From Methanoculleus sp. 7T (GTDB taxonomy: Archaea; Halobacteriota; Methanomicrobia; Methanomicrobiales; Methanoculleaceae): 64,000 nt of DNA. Of this stretch, positions 46,485 to 57,748 are shown one piece after another. The position numbers were made by a program, and so were the translations under genes. Under the pieces are notes generated by a model. It was not told where the DNA came from. It searched no databases and worked only from the letters and a program-made list of their open reading frames with translations. Position 1 is the first letter of the stretch; each line of letters starts with the position of its first letter. The stretch covers positions 1,860,001 to 1,924,000 of the forward strand of contig NZ_JALPRP010000001.1 of assembly GCF_023195915.1 (NCBI RefSeq), in the 5' to 3' direction.

Positions 46485-46496
46485 AATTTAATATTT
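46485..46496 (+). promoter_or_regulatory. TATA box of the DUF432-MscS operon
   Basis: AATTTAATATTT is centred 26 bases before the ATG at 46516, so the mRNA should be leaderless. No Shine-Dalgarno is present. Confidence 0.6.
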
Positions 46497-46515
46497 GAGC
46501 ATTTGCAGATCATAC

Positions 46516-47223
46516 ATGATGTTCGGGCATTACAACGACACTTTTCGCTACGAAAACGGCGATTTTTTCGTAGAAGCCGAACGAAGAGACGGCCTTGTGA
46601 CCTACCGGCGGAGGTGCGACGGGCAGACGTTCGAGCGGATCCTGGTCTCGGAGACGGGCGAGATCATCATCAACCCTGTGGAGCCGGTCAACCTGCCCAA
46701 AGATATCACGGATTTCCTGCAGATGGAGTTCCCCCCGATGATCATCGAGCCCGGCGCCGCCCAGACGATCTACCTGAAGTTTCCCGTCGAAGTCGGCGTC
46801 TTTCTGGAGGCTAAAAAAGACCTTGAGGTGCTGGACGTCTTCGGCGTCGGCACCCAGAAGTATACGCTCTACGGTTCGCCGACCAGCGGCGTTATCGCAC
46901 GCTGGTATCGTAGTGCGGTGTATCCGGAGATCCCGCCTGTCGAGCGTTACCGCGAGGGGGTGATGGAACTCTCTATCCTGAATGTATCTCATGAGTGGGC
47001 CGAGGTCTCGTATGCTGTCTTCGACAGTGCCGATATGAAGATCTACTACGACGATATCGTAGCGACCACCGCCACGATGAAGATTATCTCTCCGGCTATG
47101 GCGGAGACGGACTTCATCGACGCCCCGCTCCGTCCCGGCATGACACGGTCCATCGAGCTCTATACGGCGCGGAAGATTCCGGTCCTCAACCGGGGGTACC
47201 TCATGGAGTGGGGGCTGTCGTGA
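46516..47223 (+). CDS. DUF432 family protein
   Basis: The 235-residue protein is predicted soluble and beta-rich and begins M-M-F-G-H-Y-N-D-T-F-R-Y. A central segment I-N-P-V-E-P-V-N-L-P-K-D-I-T is conserved in the family as I remember it. The start at 46516 is set by the leaderless TATA; the next codon is also ATG. It overlaps the MscS-type channel gene as GTGA, and DUF432 genes tend to sit beside such channels in methanogens, so a role in osmotic response is likely. Its activity is unknown. Confidence 0.75.
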   Translation: MMFGHYNDTFRYENGDFFVEAERRDGLVTYRRRCDGQTFERILVSETGEIIINPVEPVNLPKDITDFLQMEFPPMIIEPGAAQTIYLKFPVEVGVFLEAKKDLEVLDVFGVGTQKYTLYGSPTSGVIARWYRSAVYPEIPPVERYREGVMELSILNVSHEWAEVSYAVFDSADMKIYYDDIVATTATMKIISPAMAETDFIDAPLRPGMTRSIELYTARKIPVLNRGYLMEWGLS

Positions 47224-48080
47224 CGTTCAATGTGACCGCCGTCTTGGATACGTCCATCGGCGTCGGCACGATCACCGTCAGCGACATCCTATGGTTTGTC
47301 GTCATTCTCACCGTCGGGACTACAATCGCCAAGATTGTCTCGATAAATGTCCGAAGGGCCCTCTCGGAGCGGTTGCCCAAGAGCGAGCGCGAGGTCCTCG
47401 CGAAAGTGGTCTACTATATCATCGTCATATGGGCGATCATCGTCGCTCTCCCATACCTCAATATCGAACTCTCCGGCCTCTTGGTGGCCGGGGGTATCGC
47501 CGGTCTCGTTATAGGGTTTGCCAGCCAGAGCGTCGTCTCGAACCTGGTCTCCGGACTCTTCCTTATGTTCGAGCACCCGATCAAGATCGGCGACAACATC
47601 AACGTCGCGGGCATCAGCGGCAGCGTCGAGGATATCCGTATCCTCTCGACCATCGTGAAGACCTACGACGGGATCTACACCCGGATCCCGAACGAGAAGG
47701 TCTTCACCTCGAATATCACCAACTACGTCCATAACGCCGCCCGGCGGTTCGAGTACGAACTCAGCATCCGGTACGAGGACGACGCGAACGAGGCGATCCG
47801 GATCGCGAGCGAGGTCATTGCGACTCATCCGTTTGCGTTGAAGAGCCCGGCGCCCTCGGTCTTCGTCAAGGACCTCGGCGACGACGGTGTCAACCTGACC
47901 GCCTATATCTGGGCGCCGGCCCGGAACTGGTGGGATGTCAGGACCGATCTTCTCTGGAAGATCGTGAAAGAACTCGAAGCGAACGGCATCGAGATGCCTT
48001 ACCCGCAGAGGACGGTCTGGTTTGCGGACGAACTCCGGGTAACGGCCAAAGATACCGGAGAGAAAGGAACGGAAGAGTAA
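47220..48080 (+). CDS. MscS-family mechanosensitive channel
   Basis: The 286-residue protein has three membrane helices (about 15-38, 60-80 and 85-108), with the pore helix G-I-A-G-L-V-I-G-F-A-S-Q-S-V-V-S-N-L-V. The cytoplasmic beta domain follows with H-P-I-K-I-G-D-N-I and I-R-I-L-S-T-I-V-K-T-Y-D. It should release solutes under hypo-osmotic stress. The GTG start at 47220 overlaps the DUF432 stop. A longer in-frame reading from 46995 is antisense-like noise within DUF432. Confidence 0.92.
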   Translation: MTFNVTAVLDTSIGVGTITVSDILWFVVILTVGTTIAKIVSINVRRALSERLPKSEREVLAKVVYYIIVIWAIIVALPYLNIELSGLLVAGGIAGLVIGFASQSVVSNLVSGLFLMFEHPIKIGDNINVAGISGSVEDIRILSTIVKTYDGIYTRIPNEKVFTSNITNYVHNAARRFEYELSIRYEDDANEAIRIASEVIATHPFALKSPAPSVFVKDLGDDGVNLTAYIWAPARNWWDVRTDLLWKIVKELEANGIEMPYPQRTVWFADELRVTAKDTGEKGTEE

Positions 48081-48084
48081 CCTC

Positions 48085-48090
48085 TTTTTT
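48085..48090 (+). terminator. T-run terminator after the MscS gene
   Basis: Six T residues start four bases past the MscS stop. The convergent MBL gene ends at 48089, so the two transcripts terminate face to face. Confidence 0.45.
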
Positions 48091-48751
48091 AAATTCGGTG
48101 CACCATCCCCAGACCTCCCGCCCGGAAGGTCTCCGGATACCTCTCTATGATCTCCCTGATTTTATCGGTGCAGTGCGAAGCCGAGAGGTATGCCGCCCCG
48201 GCGAGCGCATCGATGTCTTCGTCGGCGACGGTATGAAGCCCGCCGACGACCCCCCACACCGTGCCTTCCTGGGAGACCCGGTCGATGATCCGGCTGATGT
48301 GCGGGTGTGCGCACCCGGTGACGACCAGATAGCCGCCGGTCGCGGCGACTACGAGCGATTGTTCCCGGATGTCGGTCCCGAGCGGTCCGGTCACGGCGAT
48401 ACCGTCCGTGATCTCCGTCCATCCCTCGACGATCCGGGGTGCGGTATACTCCCGGATCAGTCCGAGGGTCTGTGCGGAGAAGCCGTCGTGGACGAAGACC
48501 TCCATAGATGGGTTTGCGGCGAGGACCGCTCGGAGTCCGCCGGTATGGTCCCAGTGGTCGTGGGAGAGCACGAGGTACCTGATGCCGGCAGGGTCGAGGC
48601 CGAGCGCCTGCATGTTCGATACCCACACGTCTCCTTTCGCTCCGGTGTCAAAGAGTAAACCCTCCTCTTCGATCAGGCAGGAGAACCCCCAGTCCGGGGT
48701 GAGCCCTTCCCGGCAGGGGATGTTGTTGTAGACCTCGGTGATGGTGAGCAT
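48089..48751 (-). CDS. Metallo-beta-lactamase-fold hydrolase (COG1237-like)
   Basis: The metal motif L-S-H-D-H-W-D-H-T-G-G (about 63-73) and the later V-T-G-C-A-H-P-H and G-G-L-H segments match the family that includes the ribofuranosylaminobenzene-phosphate synthase-type proteins of methanopterin research. At 220 residues it is shorter than the roughly 270 of many relatives, the reduction lying between the third and fourth motifs. The exact substrate cannot be assigned. It is monocistronic. Confidence 0.78.
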   Translation of the reverse strand: MLTITEVYNNIPCREGLTPDWGFSCLIEEEGLLFDTGAKGDVWVSNMQALGLDPAGIRYLVLSHDHWDHTGGLRAVLAANPSMEVFVHDGFSAQTLGLIREYTAPRIVEGWTEITDGIAVTGPLGTDIREQSLVVAATGGYLVVTGCAHPHISRIIDRVSQEGTVWGVVGGLHTVADEDIDALAGAAYLSASHCTDKIREIIERYPETFRAGGLGMVHRI

Positions 48752-48884
48752 CAGAACAGACTCCTGCCTTCTGGTCTCCCCTCTCGGGAGATTATGCTAC
48801 CCTATGGGGCAAGACGGCGTGAGGTATCGGTCCGGGACTTCGGAGTGTCCCGGACCTGCAGACGAAAAAATGAGGAGGCGAGGA

Positions 48885-49619
48885 TTACGCGATGACGTAG
48901 GTGACGGAGACGGTGGCGGTCACGTCGATCTCGCCGACCTCAATCGGGGTCGGGACGGCGGCCGTTGCCTTCTCCATGCCCATGTAGCGGTTGTCGTAGA
49001 GCATGGGCACGTAGTTGTTCCCGACGTTGACCTCTTTGACGTCGACGATGGTCTTGCCGAGGGCCGCAACGGTTGCATCCGCGTCGCCCCGCGCCTGCTT
49101 CACGGCGGCGGTCAGGGCCTGCGACCGGAGTTCCTGCTGCTTTGCGTCGCTCAGGGTGAACGAGAACCGGTCGACCCGGTTTGCGCCGTTCGCAACCGCG
49201 AGGTCGATGATCTCACCGGCACGGCTCACGTCGTTCAGCCGGACCTCCAGGTTGTTGACGACCCGGTAGAACTTGACTTTCGAGGCCACGAGGGACTTCT
49301 CGTTCTGCTCGGTCACCGGGATGATGTTGTAGCCGGTGGTCTTGAGATCCTTTGCCGGAATACCGGCGCCCTTCAGGGCGTTGACCACGGCGTCCATCTG
49401 CCGGGCGTTCTGCTGTTGTGCCGCCGAGACGTCGGCGTTCTCGGTCTCGACCGCGAGCACGATGACGGCCTGGTCGGGTGTGGTGGTCACTTTACCTGTG
49501 CCGGATACGTGGATCAGCTTGTCTTTGGACTCCTCCTGCGTCTGTGCGGTGACGTTCCCGATCACCGCAGCGCAGAGAACCATCAGAGCGATCCCCAGAA
49601 GTGCTGTCTTTCCCCGCAT
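48885..49619 (-). CDS. Secreted SIMPL-domain protein (DUF541)
   Basis: A signal peptide covers residues 1-25 (L-L-G-I-A-L-M-V-L-C-A-A-V-I-G-N-V-T-A-Q). The mature part is a SIMPL domain with I-H-V-S-G-T-G-K-V-T-T-T-P-D-Q-A and T-T-G-Y-N-I-I-P-V near the middle, and D-V-T-A-T-V-S-V-T-Y at the end. The length of 244 residues is usual. Bacterial relatives respond to oxidative or envelope stress; the archaeal role is not known. A TATA (49644-49657, minus) and a GTGAT Shine-Dalgarno precede it. Confidence 0.85.
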   Translation of the reverse strand: MRGKTALLGIALMVLCAAVIGNVTAQTQEESKDKLIHVSGTGKVTTTPDQAVIVLAVETENADVSAAQQQNARQMDAVVNALKGAGIPAKDLKTTGYNIIPVTEQNEKSLVASKVKFYRVVNNLEVRLNDVSRAGEIIDLAVANGANRVDRFSFTLSDAKQQELRSQALTAAVKQARGDADATVAALGKTIVDVKEVNVGNNYVPMLYDNRYMGMEKATAAVPTPIEVGEIDVTATVSVTYVIA

Positions 49620-49738: not shown

Positions 49739-50437
49739 TCAATCCTCGTCCGTCTCCTGCGACCATTCGAGCGCCGCAACCAGGCGAGCGATCAGGACCG
49801 CGATGTAGATGGTACCGCTCACGGCTTCGAGCAGGGCAAGCGACCGGGCTTGGTTGGTGATCGGCGTGATATCGCCGTAGCCGAGCGTAGCAAGGGTGAC
49901 GAAGCTGAAGTAGATGAACTCCGGGAGCGCAAAGGTGCCGTCAGGGCTATGCCCCGGATCGGCTGTGAACGATCCCGGATGGATGGTCTCGACGAGGCTG
50001 TAGGCGGTTACCCAGGTGAGGCCCATGAGGAGGTAGACCGAGACTGCACCGTAGACGGTGTCGGTGGTGATCGCCTTGGTCGTGAGCACCCGGGAGAGGA
50101 CGATAAGCGCAGTGAAGGCGTAGAAGAGGAGCGTAAAGATGCTACCGGCGCTGTTGAGGGCAGGCGTTCCGGTGACGAGGTAGAGCCACGCGAGGAGAAA
50201 GGCGGGGACCGCGAGGAGGACGGCGATCACGACCTGCCGGCGGCGGTAACTCACCGCGTAGACTCCTGTGATCAGGATGATGGACGAGAGCACCGTCAAG
50301 GCGACCGGGCCGTTGGGCCCTGCAACCACGTAGGGGTAGACGACGAGCAGGAGGATGAGCGATGCCAGCAGGTAATGGAACTGCATCGCCCTGGCGCGGG
50401 CGAGGAGCCTGGCGAGAGGCTTCAGTCTGCGGGTCAC
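49739..50437 (-). CDS. Potassium channel-like membrane protein
   Basis: The 232-residue protein has about six hydrophobic segments. The last two frame a pore loop with the potassium selectivity filter T-L-G-Y-G-D (184-189), preceded by S-F-V-T-L-A. No cytoplasmic RCK domain follows, and the C-terminal tail is short and acidic. It is the third gene of an operon with an HTH-FHA protein and a Ser/Thr kinase, overlapping the kinase stop as GTGA. The GTG at 50437 is therefore the likely start. Gating by the kinase is an inference from that order. Confidence 0.85.
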   Translation of the reverse strand: MTRRLKPLARLLARARAMQFHYLLASLILLLVVYPYVVAGPNGPVALTVLSSIILITGVYAVSYRRRQVVIAVLLAVPAFLLAWLYLVTGTPALNSAGSIFTLLFYAFTALIVLSRVLTTKAITTDTVYGAVSVYLLMGLTWVTAYSLVETIHPGSFTADPGHSPDGTFALPEFIYFSFVTLATLGYGDITPITNQARSLALLEAVSGTIYIAVLIARLVAALEWSQETDED

Positions 50438-51828
50438 GCGAGCGTCGTGTTGCCTGCTCCCCTCATCAGGGTTTCTATTGCCGCCTGCACTTCCCGTGCC
50501 GACTGGTAGCGGTCGGCAGGGTCTTTTGCGAGGCACGCGAGGATGATCGGGTCGAGTTCTTCGAGCCCCGCCTTGATCTGCGATGGGGGTGCCGGCTGCT
50601 CGCGGAGGACCGCACCGGCAAACCCGGCAAGCCCCTCGCCGGCAAACGGTGTCCTTCCCGTCACCAGTTCGTAGAAGACGACGCCGAGCTGGTAGATATC
50701 GGTCCGTGCATCGGTCTTCCCGAACTCCTTCGGGGCGATCTGCTCCGGGGCCGCGTACGCGAGGGTGAACCCGGCGATGCTGGTATCCCGGGTCCTCTCC
50801 AGCGTCGTGCTCATGCCCCAGTCGGTGATCTTCGGGGTGAGGTCGGCCGAGAGGAGGATGTTTCTCGGCTTGATATCCCGGTGGATGACGCCCTGCTCAT
50901 GGGCGTAGGCAAGCCCTGCGGCGATGCCTGCAGCGATACGGGCGGCGGTCTCGACGGGGAGGGGTTTTTCCAGTTCTTCCAGGGTCCGGGGCAGGTACTC
51001 CATCTCGACGAAGGGGACCGGGAGGATGTTGACCGAGTAGACCTTCACGATGTTAGGGTGGGTGAGGTCTTCCCAGAACCGCATCTCTTTCATGAAGGTC
51101 TTCCCGGTGGCCTCGTCGTAGGAGACCGGGATCTTCACCGCCACCTCCTGTCCGTCGTCGCGCCTGACCGCCCGGAAGACCTGTCCGAGCCCGCCTTTCC
51201 CGACGAAGGCGACCTTGTCGTAGCGCCCGGCAAGTTCGGGCGGGAACCCGGTCGGGTGGGCGAGTACGGTCTGGTGCGCACCGGGGATGATGGTCGCGGC
51301 AGAATCTGCACCGGCCCCCGGCGGCCTCTTCAGATACCGGGCGCTGAGCACGGAGGCGCCGGCGAGCACGACGGCGGCCAGAGCAACCGCACCCCAGGGG
51401 AACCGGCTCCCTCCGCCCTGACCGGGGCTTGCCCGGGGTGTCTCTGTGGGTGTCTCTGTGGGTGTCTCTGTGGGCGTATCTGGGGGTGCATCTGTGGGTA
51501 CATCTGTGGGTGTCGCCTCCGGTGTCGGCGCCTGAGTTTGCCGATCGCTCGGAGTATCGGCAGGGGTTGCGGTCTCTTGGGGTGTTGGGGCGGGCGTTGC
51601 GCTCGGGGCAGTTTTGTCGTTATTTTTGTCGGCGCTCTTCCCGGGACCGGTGACCTTGTCTTCGTTCGGCGTCTTGCTCGCCGACTGGATGGCCTGGGGG
51701 TCGGCGTTTGAGTGCTCCGGCGGCCCCCCGGCTCCCGCGGCGGCCGGCGAGAGGGCAACGAGGAGCAGGGCGGAGAGCAGGATCAGGGTGCAGGCACGCG
51801 CCCCCCACTCCCTCCGTTCAGGCCGCAT
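50434..51828 (-). CDS. Transmembrane Ser/Thr protein kinase with Pro/Thr-rich ectodomain
   Basis: This 464-residue eukaryotic-type kinase has a signal or membrane segment (11-32), a Pro/Thr-rich spacer (about 33-143) with P-T-E-T repeats, a transmembrane helix (144-164) and a cytoplasmic kinase domain (about 203-460). Catalytic parts are G-K-G-G-L-G-Q-V, Lys232 in A-V-K-I, H-R-D-I-K-P-R-N (316-323), and D-W-G (336-338) in place of D-F-G, then A-P-E-Q. The ATG at 51828 overlaps the FHA gene end by 11 bases. It is the middle gene of a three-gene signalling operon and probably phosphorylates the FHA protein or the channel. Confidence 0.88.
   Translation of the reverse strand: MRPERREWGARACTLILLSALLLVALSPAAAGAGGPPEHSNADPQAIQSASKTPNEDKVTGPGKSADKNNDKTAPSATPAPTPQETATPADTPSDRQTQAPTPEATPTDVPTDAPPDTPTETPTETPTETPRASPGQGGGSRFPWGAVALAAVVLAGASVLSARYLKRPPGAGADSAATIIPGAHQTVLAHPTGFPPELAGRYDKVAFVGKGGLGQVFRAVRRDDGQEVAVKIPVSYDEATGKTFMKEMRFWEDLTHPNIVKVYSVNILPVPFVEMEYLPRTLEELEKPLPVETAARIAAGIAAGLAYAHEQGVIHRDIKPRNILLSADLTPKITDWGMSTTLERTRDTSIAGFTLAYAAPEQIAPKEFGKTDARTDIYQLGVVFYELVTGRTPFAGEGLAGFAGAVLREQPAPPSQIKAGLEELDPIILACLAKDPADRYQSAREVQAAIETLMRGAGNTTLA
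51437..51513. repeat. 12-base tandem repeat in the kinase gene
   Basis: About six copies of a unit close to GGGTGTCTCTGT encode the Thr-Pro-Thr-Glu/Asp repeats of the kinase ectodomain. Later copies carry substitutions such as GTATCT and GCATCT. The array keeps the frame and may vary in copy number between strains. Confidence 0.75.
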
Positions 51829-52621
51829 CCGACGGCGGCACCTCCCCGGGAACGACGAAGACGAGAGTCGCCCCCGGCGCCCCTTTTGCAAGTTCGATGA
51901 GATCTCCGTCGTGGAGTTCCCGCCGCGTGCCCCGGTCGAGCGGCGTGCCGTTCACGAAGGTTCCGCCTGTGCTGCCGCAGTCCTCGATGAGCCAGACGTC
52001 CCCTCGCCGGGTGAGCCGGGCGTGCGGCTTTGATATCCGGGTGACCGCCGCGTAGTCCTCGCCGAGCACGACCTCACGCTCGGGGTCGGACCGGCCGGGC
52101 GCGCTCGGGTCGGCCCGGCCTATGGCGATGGTGTCGTGCCCGATCGGGAAGACCTTTCCGTCATCCGCCCCGCCGAGGAGGAAGAGGACCGGGCGCCGGC
52201 CGAAGAACTCGCCCGAGAACGTCTCCCGAACGCCGGCGAGTTTCTTTGCGAGCACGGCGTCCGTGAGCGTCAGTTTCAGGTTCGAGAAGAGCCCGAGACT
52301 CCTGGTGATCGCCTCAAGGCCCCCGGGCACGAGCGAGTATTTCCAGACCGGGTGGATTCCTTTCGCGGTCGGGCGTGAGAGGCCGGCCTCCTTCCGGACG
52401 ACTCCGATGCTCATCAGTTTGTCGAGGTGTTTCTTCGTGTTCTCGTAACTCGTCTCGATCTCGGACGATATCTGCCGAACGTCTTTTGGCGTCCGTTCGA
52501 TGACCTTCAGAATCTTTAAGCGTGTGCTGCTGCTCAGCACGTCGAGGTATTCGGAGAGTTCCTGCAGGTCGTCGGTGTCTATATCGAGGATCAGGGTCCT
52601 TGAGTCGTCGTCGTCGGTCAT
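51818..52621 (-). CDS. Winged-helix plus FHA-domain protein
   Basis: The N-terminal half (about 18-100) is an ArsR-like winged helix: L-D-V-L-S-S-S-T-R-L-K-I-L-K-V-I then D-V-R-Q-I-S-S-E-I. A linker leads to a C-terminal FHA domain (about 165-245) with I-G-R-A, S-K-P-H-A-R-L, S-T-G-G-T-F-V-N-G and D-G-D. FHA domains bind phospho-threonine, and a kinase is encoded next, so a phosphorylation-tuned DNA-binding regulator is likely. An AGGAGA Shine-Dalgarno precedes the ATG at 52621. It is the first gene of the operon. Confidence 0.88.
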   Translation of the reverse strand: MTDDDDSRTLILDIDTDDLQELSEYLDVLSSSTRLKILKVIERTPKDVRQISSEIETSYENTKKHLDKLMSIGVVRKEAGLSRPTAKGIHPVWKYSLVPGGLEAITRSLGLFSNLKLTLTDAVLAKKLAGVRETFSGEFFGRRPVLFLLGGADDGKVFPIGHDTIAIGRADPSAPGRSDPEREVVLGEDYAAVTRISKPHARLTRRGDVWLIEDCGSTGGTFVNGTPLDRGTRRELHDGDLIELAKGAPGATLVFVVPGEVPPSDAA

Positions 52622-52784
52622 AGTCTCTCCTGCCGGCCAATCTATTGTTGTATGGTTTCACGAGCCTTCTGATGAAGGTTGTGCAGACCGCCGACACCGG
52701 GCCGGCCGGTCGTGCCTCCGTTGCCGGGGTGCCTGCTCTTCCGGCCATTCGCACGCCCACTGGCGGATCTGTGGGGAAACGGGC

Positions 52785-53673: not shown

Positions 53674-54117
53674 TCACGTCGCCCCCGGCGGGTCCGCGAA
53701 GAGCGCGATGTAGCCGCCGATGAGCACGATGATGAAGACAACGATGTAGATCAGGAGCGCAAGCGTCCCCTCGAAGAGGGTGAAGAACCCGATACCCGTG
53801 ATCTCGCCCACGAGTAGGAAGAGCCGGAAGAGGAACATGACCGTGAAGACGGCGCCGACGGCGCCGAAGACCGGGCCCGGCAGGTTCAGGGGGAAGGCCA
53901 AGGCACCGAAGAGGTCGCCGACCAGAAAGATTGCCGCGATCAGGATGAGCAGGCCGATGTTGGCGTTGAGGAACTCCACCACGCGGAGGAAGGTTGGGCT
54001 CTGGACGTAGGCGCCGGCCAGGGCGTTTAAGACGGCGAGCAGGATCAGGAAGACGACGATCCCGATGACCCTTGAGACGAGGACGCCGAAGAACGATTCT
54101 TTCCTGCGTTCACCCAT
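53674..54117 (-). CDS. Small integral membrane protein
   Basis: The 147-residue protein has four predicted membrane helices (about 12-32, 45-65, 70-100 and 115-140) and a basic N-terminus M-G-E-R-R-K-E-S. I do not recognise a family. The ATG at 54117 is preferred; a GTG at 54141 would add eight residues. It ends 7 bases from the convergent small paralogue gene. Its role is unknown. Confidence 0.6.
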   Translation of the reverse strand: MGERRKESFFGVLVSRVIGIVVFLILLAVLNALAGAYVQSPTFLRVVEFLNANIGLLILIAAIFLVGDLFGALAFPLNLPGPVFGAVGAVFTVMFLFRLFLLVGEITGIGFFTLFEGTLALLIYIVVFIIVLIGGYIALFADPPGAT

Positions 54118-54244
54118 ACGACCGGGGTGAATGCCCTCCACCCATATGGAGTTTCCGGCGGGGGTTGGCGGGCCTTCGGTCCCCCCGGATAACCGTAACG
54201 TTCAAGATGCCTCCTGCAGTGAGTAGACCACTGGAGCCCGTATC

Positions 54245-56011
54245 GTGAAGTTTGCAACCCTCACCTCCTGTTTCCGGAGGCTCGAAGTTACGTCGTCCCA
54301 GAACGAGATGATCGCTCTCCTTGCGCGGTTGCTCGCCGGGACGCCGCCGGACGAGATCGAGACCGTCTGTTACTTCACGCTCGGGGAGATCGGCCCCGAG
54401 TACAGCGGGGTGGCCCTGGGCGTCGGGGACCGGACCGCAGCGGCGGCAATCGCCCTTGCAGCCGGAACCGATCTCGCATCGGTCGAAACTGCGGCCCGCG
54501 AACTCGGCGATTACGGCGACGCCGCCGTCAGGCTGGCCGGGCGGCCCCCGGAGGGGATCGCGGAAGCCTTCCCGGCCGCCGGACCGCTCACGGTCACGGA
54601 CGTCCACCGCGGCTTTGCGGAGATCGCCCGGACATCGGGCCCGGGCTCGGCCGACCGGAAGACGAGGGTCCTTGCCGCCATGCTTGCCGCCGCCACGCCG
54701 CCCGAGCGGCGCTACCTGGTCCGGCTTGCCACCGGGGAGATGCGGCTCGGTGTCGGGGACATGACGCTCCTCGACGCGCTGGCTGAGGCGTTCCTGGGAG
54801 CAAAGGCCGAGCGCCCGCCCCTTGAACACGCCTACAACATCTCCTCCGACATCGGTTTTGTGGCCCGGACGCTTCTGGAATCGGGCCTTCCCGGAGTCTT
54901 AGCGATATCCATCACCCTGCACCGCCCCATACGGCCGATGCTCACCCAGCGGGTCTCCCGGATATCGGAGATCCCTGAGCGGATCGGCTCCCGGGTCATC
55001 GCCGTCGAGGAGAAGTACGACGGGGAGCGGGTCCAAGCACACAAGGACGGCGACGACGTCACCCTGTTCTCGCGGCGGCTGACCGACGTCACCCACCAGT
55101 ATCCCGATATCGTCCGGCACGTCCGGCGGTGCGTCATGGCCGATACGGCGATCCTCGACGGCGAAGCAGTCGCGTTCGACCACGCGACCGGCACCTACCA
55201 GCCGTTCCAGACGCTGATGCGGCGGCGACGGAAGCACCGGGTCAGGGAGGTCGCAGGCGAGATCCCGGCGACCTACCGGGTCTTCGACCTCCTCTACGTG
55301 AACGGCGAGTCCTACCTCCGCCGGAGTTACCCCGACCGTCGGGCGAGACTCGAGGAGGTCCTCGGCCGGGATGAGCGGATCTCTCCCGCAGGCCGCACCG
55401 TGACCGAGGACCTTGACGAGATCTCGGAGTTCTACCTCGCCTGCATCGAGCGGGGGCTTGAGGGGATCGTCTGCAAGTCGTGCGCCGAGGACTCGTTCTA
55501 CCGGGCCGGGGCGCGAGAGTGGCAGTGGATCAAGTGGAAGAGCGATTACGGCACCGAACTTGCCGATACGCTCGACTTGGTCGTCGTCGGCGCAAACGCC
55601 GGGCGGGGAAAGCGGGCGGGGACCTACGGTTCGGTCCTCTGCGCCGCCTACAACCATGAGGAGGACGTCTTCCAGACGGTCTGCGGCATAGGGACAGGGT
55701 TTTCCGACGCGGACCTCGCAGACCTCCCCCGCCGGCTTGCCGGAGCGAGGGTGGACCGGCAGCCGGCGCGGGTGGCGGTGACCCCGCAGGCCGTGCCCGA
55801 CTTCTGGTTCGCACCGGCCCAGGTGGTTGAGGTGCTGGGGCTTGAGATCACCGAAAGCCCGGTCCATACCTGCAACTGGGACCCGGAGCGGCAGCGGGGG
55901 CTCGCCCTCCGGTTCCCGAGGTTCGTGCGGTGGCGGGACGAGAAGAGGCCGGAACAGGCGACGACGGCCGCCGAGGTTGCGGCGATGTTCCGCCGCCGGC
56001 GGGAGGGGTAA
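54245..56011 (+). CDS. lig: ATP-dependent DNA ligase
   Basis: This is a type I replicative/repair ligase that seals nicks by adenylating itself. The adenylation lysine lies in motif I, E-E-K-Y-D-G-E-R-V-Q (near residues 257-266). F-S-R-R-L-T-D-V-T, L-D-G-E-A-V and E-G-I-V-C-K are motifs III to IV, and W-I-K-W-K-S-D-Y is motif V. The N-terminal DNA-binding domain (1-220) is present. At 588 residues it is slightly longer than usual. The stop is three bases before an intact PolX gene, so the two likely act together in gap repair. Confidence 0.93.
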   Translation: MKFATLTSCFRRLEVTSSQNEMIALLARLLAGTPPDEIETVCYFTLGEIGPEYSGVALGVGDRTAAAAIALAAGTDLASVETAARELGDYGDAAVRLAGRPPEGIAEAFPAAGPLTVTDVHRGFAEIARTSGPGSADRKTRVLAAMLAAATPPERRYLVRLATGEMRLGVGDMTLLDALAEAFLGAKAERPPLEHAYNISSDIGFVARTLLESGLPGVLAISITLHRPIRPMLTQRVSRISEIPERIGSRVIAVEEKYDGERVQAHKDGDDVTLFSRRLTDVTHQYPDIVRHVRRCVMADTAILDGEAVAFDHATGTYQPFQTLMRRRRKHRVREVAGEIPATYRVFDLLYVNGESYLRRSYPDRRARLEEVLGRDERISPAGRTVTEDLDEISEFYLACIERGLEGIVCKSCAEDSFYRAGAREWQWIKWKSDYGTELADTLDLVVVGANAGRGKRAGTYGSVLCAAYNHEEDVFQTVCGIGTGFSDADLADLPRRLAGARVDRQPARVAVTPQAVPDFWFAPAQVVEVLGLEITESPVHTCNWDPERQRGLALRFPRFVRWRDEKRPEQATTAAEVAAMFRRRREG

Positions 56012-56014
56012 GTC

Positions 56015-57748
56015 ATGGAGAAACTATCTCGGATGAGCAACATCGAGGTCGCGGCGGTCCTCTACGAGGTCGCCGACCTCCTCGAGATCAAGGGCGTCCG
56101 GTTCAAGCCGCATGCCTACCGACGGGCGGCGCAGGCGATCGAGACCCTGCCTGAGGATATCGCCGACGTCACGCGGGAAGGCCGCCTCGACGAGGTCCCC
56201 GGCGTCGGGAAAGGTATCGCCGGAAAGGTCCGGGAGGTCGTCGAGACCGGCGATCTCGCCTACTTATCGTCTTTGCGTGAGGAACTCCCGGAGGGCGTGC
56301 AGGAACTCACCCGGATCGAGGGTATCGGGCCGAAGAAGGCGATCGCCCTCTCCCGGGAACTCGGGATCCGGACCGTCGACGACCTGGAGGCGGCGGCAAA
56401 AGCGGGCCGGATCCGAGACCTGCCCGGGTTCGGGGAGAAGACCGAGCAGAACATCCTTGCAAGCATCAGGATGAGCAAGACGGCGAGGGAGCGGCATCTC
56501 CTCGGTTACATCCTCCCCATCGCCCGGGATATCGAGCGCCGGCTCTCGTCGCTCGATTCGGTCCTGAGGGTGAGCCTCGCCGGCTCGATACGCCGCAAGA
56601 AGGAGACGATCGGGGATGTCGACATCCTGGCCGCCTCCACGCGCCCGGATGAGGTTATGGAGGTCTTCGCCACCCTCCCCGGGGTCTCGCGGGTCCTTGC
56701 CCGGGGGACGACGAAGACCTCGGTTGTGCTCGCGACCGGGGTTCAGGTCGACCTCCGGGTGGTGGAAGACAAGCATTTCGGGGCCGCTCTCCAGTACTTC
56801 ACCGGGTCGAAGGAGCACAACATCGCCCTCCGGAAGCTCGCCATCGCGAGGAACTGGCGGTTGAACGAGTACGGGCTTGTGGACCTCGCAACCGGCCGCG
56901 TAGTCGCGGGCGAGGACGAGGCCGGAGTCTACCGGGCCCTCGACCTCCCTTGGATCGAGCCGGAACTCCGGGAGGACCGCGGCGAGATCGAGGCCGCACG
57001 AACCGGAACCCTCCCCGGCCTCGTCGAGTACGGGTCGGTCCGGGGCGACCTCCACGCCCACACCCGGTGGAGCGAGGGGTCTCACTCAATCGAGGAGATG
57101 GCGGAGGCGGCGCAGGCGCTCGGCTACGAGTATATCGCCATCTGCGACCATGCAGAGACCCTTCACATCGCCCGCGGCCTCTCCCCGGAACGCCTGGCCG
57201 ACCAGATCCGCGAGATCGAGCGGATCAACCGGGAGGCCGACGGCGAATTCACCGTTCTTGCCGGCACCGAGTGCAACATCGGCATGGACGGTAGGATCGA
57301 CCTCCCTGACAGCGTCCTTGCCGACCTCGACGTGGTGGTTGCGAGCGTCCACTCAGGGTTTAAGCAGTCCGAACGGGAGATGACGGAGCGTGTCGCCACG
57401 GCGATGCAGAACGACCACGTCGACATCATCGGCCACCCGACGGGCCGGATCCTTCTTACGCGCGAGCCCTACCGGATCGACCTCGCCGCGGTCTTCGACG
57501 CCGCAGCAGCGCTCGGCGTCCTCATGGAGATCAACGCGTTCCCAAGCAGGCTGGACCTCTCAGACGTCAACTGCCGTCAGGCCCGGGAACACGGCATCCG
57601 ATTCTCGCTCGGCTCGGATGCGCACAGCCGCGAGAACCTCCGCTACATGGAGTTCGGCGTCGCGACCGCCAGGAGGGGGTGGCTTGCGGCGGAGGATATC
57701 GTCAACACCCGCCCGCTTGAGGACCTGAGGGGAGTCCTGCGTTCTTAA
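56015..57748 (+). CDS. polX: DNA polymerase X with PHP domain
   Basis: This 577-residue polymerase fills short gaps in DNA repair. The helix-hairpin-helix region includes V-P-G-V-G-K-G-I-A and I-E-G-I-G-P-K-K-A. The catalytic aspartates are complete: G-D-V-D (Asp201, Asp203) and V-Q-V-D-L-R-V (Asp246). The C-terminal PHP phosphoesterase (about 340-577) has H-A-H-T, C-D-H-A, S-V-H-S-G-F, G-H-P-T-G and G-S-D-A-H and may proofread or process 3' ends. A G-rich Shine-Dalgarno supports the ATG at 56015. Confidence 0.92.
   Translation: MEKLSRMSNIEVAAVLYEVADLLEIKGVRFKPHAYRRAAQAIETLPEDIADVTREGRLDEVPGVGKGIAGKVREVVETGDLAYLSSLREELPEGVQELTRIEGIGPKKAIALSRELGIRTVDDLEAAAKAGRIRDLPGFGEKTEQNILASIRMSKTARERHLLGYILPIARDIERRLSSLDSVLRVSLAGSIRRKKETIGDVDILAASTRPDEVMEVFATLPGVSRVLARGTTKTSVVLATGVQVDLRVVEDKHFGAALQYFTGSKEHNIALRKLAIARNWRLNEYGLVDLATGRVVAGEDEAGVYRALDLPWIEPELREDRGEIEAARTGTLPGLVEYGSVRGDLHAHTRWSEGSHSIEEMAEAAQALGYEYIAICDHAETLHIARGLSPERLADQIREIERINREADGEFTVLAGTECNIGMDGRIDLPDSVLADLDVVVASVHSGFKQSEREMTERVATAMQNDHVDIIGHPTGRILLTREPYRIDLAAVFDAAAALGVLMEINAFPSRLDLSDVNCRQAREHGIRFSLGSDAHSRENLRYMEFGVATARRGWLAAEDIVNTRPLEDLRGVLRS

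Follow-up and report, generated by a model that had tools for sequence, protein, structure and literature searches.

The genes for an HTH-FHA transcription regulator and a membrane Ser/Thr kinase, the first two genes of an operon in Methanoculleus sp. 7T, form a conserved unit in the Methanomicrobiales. The operon probably codes for a dedicated Ser/Thr sensor kinase together with the transcription factor that is its cognate partner, resembling the PknH-EmbR pair but provided with a phospho-tail of the GarA/OdhI/DgcB type. There is good support for a path from an outside signal to transcription, provided by order-wide pairing and co-occurrence of the two genes, by the conserved catalytic and phosphothreonine (pThr)-binding residues, and by an invariant threonine in the regulator. 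We lean, with somewhat less assurance, towards the wider view that the Methanomicrobiales contain an undescribed class of one-to-one Ser/Thr two-component-like systems, in which a DWG Hanks sensor kinase with an exchangeable ectodomain would be matched to an HTH-FHA regulator switched by a phosphothreonine in its tail; some genera would add to this a linked phosphatase of the PP2C type and, as the likely target, a MacB-type exporter, and in Methanoculleus a K+ channel gene would have been captured. If so, methanogenic archaea would possess a dedicated, lineage-wide pathway leading from a Ser/Thr sensor kinase to a transcription factor.

Operon anatomy and regulator-kinase pairing

The window (the whole stretch of DNA analysed, 64,000 nucleotides) carries the operon on its minus strand. 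The features referred to below are as follows:

51818..52621, minus strand: HTH-FHA transcription regulator, 267 aa (ATG at 52621, stop at 51818)
52595..52597, minus strand: codon of Thr9, the predicted phospho-acceptor (Thr in 132 of the 132 homologues aligned at this column)
50434..51828, minus strand: membrane Ser/Thr kinase, 464 aa from the ATG at 51828
49739..50437, minus strand: six-TM K+ channel, 232 aa, GTG start at 50437; clade-specific third gene
52670..52683, minus strand: element CACAACCTTCATCA, 49 nt 5′ of the HTH-FHA ATG
48885..49619, minus strand: SIMPL (DUF541) exported protein, next gene 3′ of the operon

The initial annotation had described three genes, all of them overlapping, and this was borne out: the regulator and kinase genes share 11 nt, and the kinase and channel genes 4 nt (GTGA). 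Its account of the three products also held. The regulator, presented as a phospho-threonine reader with a DNA-binding domain, contains an FHA domain (55.2 bits) and an ArsR-type HTH (HTH_5, 26.9 bits against a cut-off of 22), both above the Pfam cut-off; a disordered N-terminal tail bearing the invariant Thr9 is followed by the ArsR-type winged HTH (residues ∼17–97), linker helices and the FHA domain (residues ∼145–256). The kinase, said to have an extracytoplasmic spacer, consists of a signal/TM1 segment, a short conserved head (GGPPEH...), a Pro/Thr-rich stalk, TM2 and a PknB-like kinase domain (VAVK, HRD, DWG, APE; Pkinase, 149.5 bits). Translation of the kinase probably starts at the ATG at 51828, immediately 5′ of the signal/TM segment, and the listed TTG at 51891 is probably wrong. 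The third product, described as a K+ channel without a ligand domain of its own, has an Ion_trans_2 pore (47.7 bits) and a short C-terminal tail, with neither an RCK nor any other ligand domain. FHA domains and Hanks kinases above the Pfam cut-off number one each in this genome; its one PP2C phosphatase gene is unlinked to the operon. Cultivated Methanoculleus with a single pair and a single Hanks kinase would be simple test organisms.

Loci were sampled across the order (80) and by name (80), and 134 distinct full-length HTH-FHA regulators were compared. A membrane kinase gene directly adjoins that of the regulator in 123 of these 134 cases, on the same strand in 121. At loci L164 and L170 the kinase is found slightly further downstream, and of the nine remaining unpaired regulators eight are at contig ends, the ninth being that of locus L120. 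Counted by genome, an FHA domain was detected in 133 of 199 Methanomicrobiales genomes, and a kinase above the cut-off in 146 of 199. Among the 150 matches listed for each domain, 82 FHA sites had a listed kinase within 6 kb, which in 81 was downstream and on the same strand. Within the Methanoculleus family the regulator is present in 30 of 40 genomes; a strong kinase occurs in 29 of the 30 genomes with FHA versus 1 of the 10 without it (Fisher P = 3.6 × 10–7, a value that ignores kinship and assembly gaps). A sample of 393 genomes from the phylum gave no match outside the Methanomicrobiales, nor were relatives found among viral contigs. The initial annotation had proposed conservation of the three-gene order in other Methanomicrobiales as a check; the pair passes it, while the triple does so in one family only.

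A single genome can hold two to four paralogous pairs that are divergent in sequence. Sequence distances between regulators correlate with those between kinases (r = 0.855, compared with ≤0.10 in 200 permutations), a figure that includes shared species history. The concordance of best matches among paralogous pairs was weakly above chance (225 of 348, 161 being expected), so that partners may have been exchanged between deeply separated pairs, or else the signal is weak.

Several loci depart from the usual arrangement. L120 (4116–10600) is a cluster in which two FHA genes occur together with genes for a kinase and a PP2C phosphatase; the second FHA gene adjoins the kinase, and its product has no HTH match in Pfam. 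At L133 (4390–7595) regulator and kinase face each other from opposite strands, an arrangement that only rarely replaces the operon order. In G058:C31 and G068:C27 the regulator is part of very long frames (1175 and 1119 aa, respectively), each broken by one TGA, which perhaps run on into the kinase.

Kinase motifs, tail threonine and FHA pocket

The kinase has the features of a Hanks-type (PknB-like) Ser/Thr kinase, namely a Pkinase domain with the catalytic Lys, the HRD Asp, an Asp at the DFG position and the APE motif. Lys232 (VAVK), Asp318 (HRD), Asp336 (DWG) and PE361–362 are invariant in 118 aligned kinases, and DFG is replaced by DWG in all 118. Assignment to the PASTA kinases (Stk1/PknB equivalog) was rejected, since the NCBIfam score was 213 bits versus the 450 needed and the kinase domain alone was matched. 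Residues 34–143 are 45% Ser, Thr or Pro, and the second TM precedes the kinase domain. In Methanoculleus the ectodomain has a short conserved head (AGGPPEH..QGIE..K.P) ahead of the stalk. Across the order the ectodomains differ: a Pro/Thr stalk with two TM, a NosD beta-helix, PEGA domains, or five to six TM. This variety can be likened to the diversification of sensor histidine kinases.

The Thr9 column of the 134 aligned regulators contains two gaps and otherwise only Thr, never Ser; among 43 representatives with <70% identity it is Thr in 42 of 42, with one gap. In the other tail columns (2–14), the top residue is found in at most 16 of the 43 representatives. The residue at +3 from Thr9 is I, L, V or M in 110 of 134 aligned sequences, and an acidic residue lies upstream of Thr9 in 40 of 43 representatives. 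In the FHA domain, G168, R169, H200, S217 and N224 are present in 134 of 134 regulators, and position 197 is always S or T. The phosphate-loop Arg, Ser and Asn typical of pThr-binding FHA domains are therefore in place, peptide binding being predicted from them. The DNA-binding domain is of the ArsR winged HTH type and its recognition helix is conserved, SYENTKKHL being nearly invariant. FHA domains discriminate pThr from pSer, and the strict retention of Thr at position 9 fits an FHA ligand. The tail had pLDDT values <50 in an AlphaFold2 model (30 input sequences), which makes it unlikely that Thr9 is retained for the fold; AlphaFold2 gave no confident placement of the tail in the FHA pocket (pTM 0.51). 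Foldseek matches of the regulator included EmbR, GarA, OdhI and the DgcB FHA-phosphotail complex. Taken together, the invariant Thr9, the hydrophobic residue at +3 and the intact FHA pocket predict a phospho-switch like that of OdhI and DgcB, operating on a pair like PknH-EmbR.

According to this model, an envelope signal would act on the kinase ectodomain, with its short conserved head on the Pro/Thr stalk; the cytosolic kinase would autophosphorylate and would also phosphorylate the HTH-FHA regulator on Thr9 of its tail. The resulting pThr9-x-x-[ILV] motif would dock in the FHA pocket (R169, S197, N224) of the same or of another molecule, changing the HTH dimer and its binding to DNA. Reset would be the task of a PP2C phosphatase, whose gene accompanies the module in other genera and lies apart from it in this genome, and the K+ channel of Methanoculleus would be a co-transcribed accessory. 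If this is correct, the predicted phospho-acceptor (Thr9), the reader pocket and the candidate phosphatase are all directly testable.

The FHA domain might instead serve mainly to dock the regulator on the autophosphorylated kinase, via a pThr of the activation loop or the juxtamembrane linker, tethering it to the membrane or presenting another residue for phosphorylation, with Thr9 as a site of secondary rank or in competition. For EmbR-PknH, recruitment through the FHA domain is documented (PMC4601284), and recruitment of GarA by PknB is among the work cited in PMC2784874; moreover, one column of the juxtamembrane linker is Thr in 92 of 118 kinases, and most kinases have T/S at positions 349 and 350 of the activation loop. 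This juxtamembrane Thr is, however, less conserved than Thr9 (92/118 versus 132/132) and lies in a poorly aligned region; the alignment was too poor for it to be retained as the main docking site, and an alignment-independent motif count found no T[ILV] in 71 of 115 linkers. Since docking by itself would also leave the invariant Thr of the regulator's own tail unexplained, we consider it possible but clearly the less probable role. That Thr9 is kept for DNA contact or folding, the regulator answering to some other input, appears quite improbable. The tail does immediately precede the winged HTH, [ILV] residues after Thr9 could form a strand, and the AlphaFold2 input was small; but the low tail pLDDT, the strict preference for Thr over Ser, the acidic residue upstream, the adjoining kinase and the intact pThr pocket all argue against this reading.

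The K+ channel and other candidate partners

The third gene of the operon encodes a channel whose pore matches KcsA and whose selectivity filter, TLGYGD (conserved in an alignment of 11), is of the TxGYGD type, as in K+ channels of the Ion_trans_2 family. A full-length channel gene sits behind the HTH-FHA and kinase genes in 22 of the 22 family genomes that have one, so the arrangement is not due to chance. Its presence in the operon is confined to Methanoculleus and one sister genus. Several Methanoculleus lack it but retain kinase and regulator, the SIMPL gene then being directly 3′ of the kinase; at L071:8216–8387, two fragments, one matching the N-terminal and the other the C-terminal part of the channel, lie directly 3′ of the kinase and represent a deleted channel gene. 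On the tree, the pattern of presence and absence takes no fewer than three changes. In other families, none of 18 loci with channel homologues had FHA or kinase genes nearby, and a positional check agreed with this.

Direct phosphorylation of the channel by the kinase, with transcription and ion flow controlled in parallel, was the reading of the initial annotation, which saw a complete path from outside signal to both outputs. The transcription arm of that path has strong support from pairing, co-occurrence and conserved residues, whereas membership of the ion-flow arm is not supported. The 4-nt overlap with the kinase gene and the constant position of the channel gene do speak for a direct link, as does T125 in the S4-S5 linker, the sole cytosolic Ser/Thr specific to linked channels (T/S in 21 of 21; the 18 unlinked channels have mostly D, R, L or K there). 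However, all linked channels form one clade and T125 could reflect common descent, so it would hint only weakly at phosphorylation; the terminal tails contain no conserved Ser/Thr, homologues elsewhere are unlinked, and the channel is patchy within the family, kinase and regulator remaining where it has been lost. Direct phosphorylation is therefore unlikely. The channel is at most a local, clade-specific accessory that has been lost repeatedly, most likely coupled to the pair via co-expression.

Other genes accompany the pair outside Methanoculleus. Nine loci outside its family have a PP2C phosphatase gene within the module or a short distance from it, and an ABC exporter of the MacB type (ATPase, MacB/FtsX permease and CARDB protein) recurs in the vicinity of the module, at up to sixteen loci. 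The exporter is a candidate target of the system. At L108, L112, L086, L140, L093, L098 and L101 the exporter and CARDB protein lie beside the pair, either upstream or downstream.

Known systems, upstream element and neighbourhood

The system nearest in logic is PknH-EmbR, which also combines a transmembrane Ser/Thr kinase with a DNA-binding regulator bearing a C-terminal FHA domain; the pknH and embR genes are neighbours. To our knowledge, EmbR has no invariant Thr in its N-terminal tail. EmbR was among the top Foldseek matches of the archaeal regulator, via the FHA part, yet it has an OmpR-type winged HTH and a BTA domain while the archaeal protein has an ArsR-type winged HTH and no BTA; membership of the EmbR family was rejected, as the Pfam scan of the regulator revealed neither an OmpR-type nor a BTA domain. 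The archaeal pair further differs from PknH-EmbR in being order-wide and multi-copy, with interchangeable ectodomains. In Mycobacterium tuberculosis, phosphorylation of EmbR raises its binding to promoters, for which the FHA domain is required (PMC4601284).

In DgcB, and in OdhI and GarA of Actinobacteria, a Thr of the N-terminal tail becomes, once phosphorylated, a ligand of the FHA domain in the same protein; the archaeal regulator has the conserved tail Thr, and its docking is predicted. The FHA domain of Bdellovibrio DgcB binds the tail sequence pT14-S-I-V17 with V17 in a pocket (PMC6733907), the hydrophobic residue at +3 being common to DgcB and the archaeal regulator, and OdhI binds its phosphorylated tail Thr in a similar way (PMC2784874). 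The outputs of these proteins are a GGDEF enzyme or enzyme inhibition, in contrast to the predicted DNA binding of the archaeal regulator, and their kinases are not dedicated gene neighbours.

Among archaea, the ArnA/ArnB proteins of Sulfolobales, with the kinases ArnC/ArnD, provide a case of an FHA protein in kinase-controlled regulation of transcription (PMC10470591). ArnA differs from the HTH-FHA regulator in lacking an ArsR-type winged HTH and in working with the vWA protein ArnB. According to the same paper, conservation of FHA proteins among archaea is restricted to Crenarchaeota (PMC10470591), a published view contradicted, and corrected, by the Methanomicrobiales counts given above. 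No earlier description of the HTH-FHA/kinase pair was found in the literature searched, which did not extend to subscription papers. This agrees with the opinion expressed in the initial annotation that no archaeal system with this combination had been described, although the bacterial PknH-EmbR is a close functional precedent.

In its construction the pair resembles a two-component system whose sensors can be exchanged: both have a paired sensor kinase with a variable ectodomain and a DNA-binding regulator, and both occur as several paralogous pairs per genome. Two-component systems rely on a histidine kinase and a REC domain, whereas the archaeal pair has a Hanks-type Ser/Thr kinase and pThr recognition by FHA; a true two-component system was rejected, neither a histidine kinase nor a REC domain appearing in Pfam scans of regulator and kinase.

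No conserved DNA operator was found upstream of the regulators across the order. The element CACAACCTTCATCA is limited to the Methanoculleus family and kept in nearly all Methanoculleus loci, and is a candidate core promoter or autoregulatory operator. Other close matches to CACAACCTTCATCA in the genome are not at clear promoters, and so no regulon was drawn.

On the 3′ side of the operon, genes for a metallo-beta-lactamase-fold protein and the SIMPL (DUF541) protein (window 48089–49619, minus strand) are conserved in the family; whether the SIMPL protein is part of the system is uncertain. Beyond these lie a DUF432 gene and then one for an MscS-type mechanosensitive channel (46495–48080, plus strand), a couple that many Methanoculleus loci retain at a distance of 3–6 kb from the operon of the kinase, and which possibly represents an osmotic neighbourhood. 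On the 5′ side, a small multi-TM membrane protein with no Pfam match (53674–54141, minus strand) is kept in Methanoculleus, and is followed by a DNA ligase-like gene and then a PolX-like polymerase/PHP gene (54245–57748, plus strand), identified from their ORF translations.
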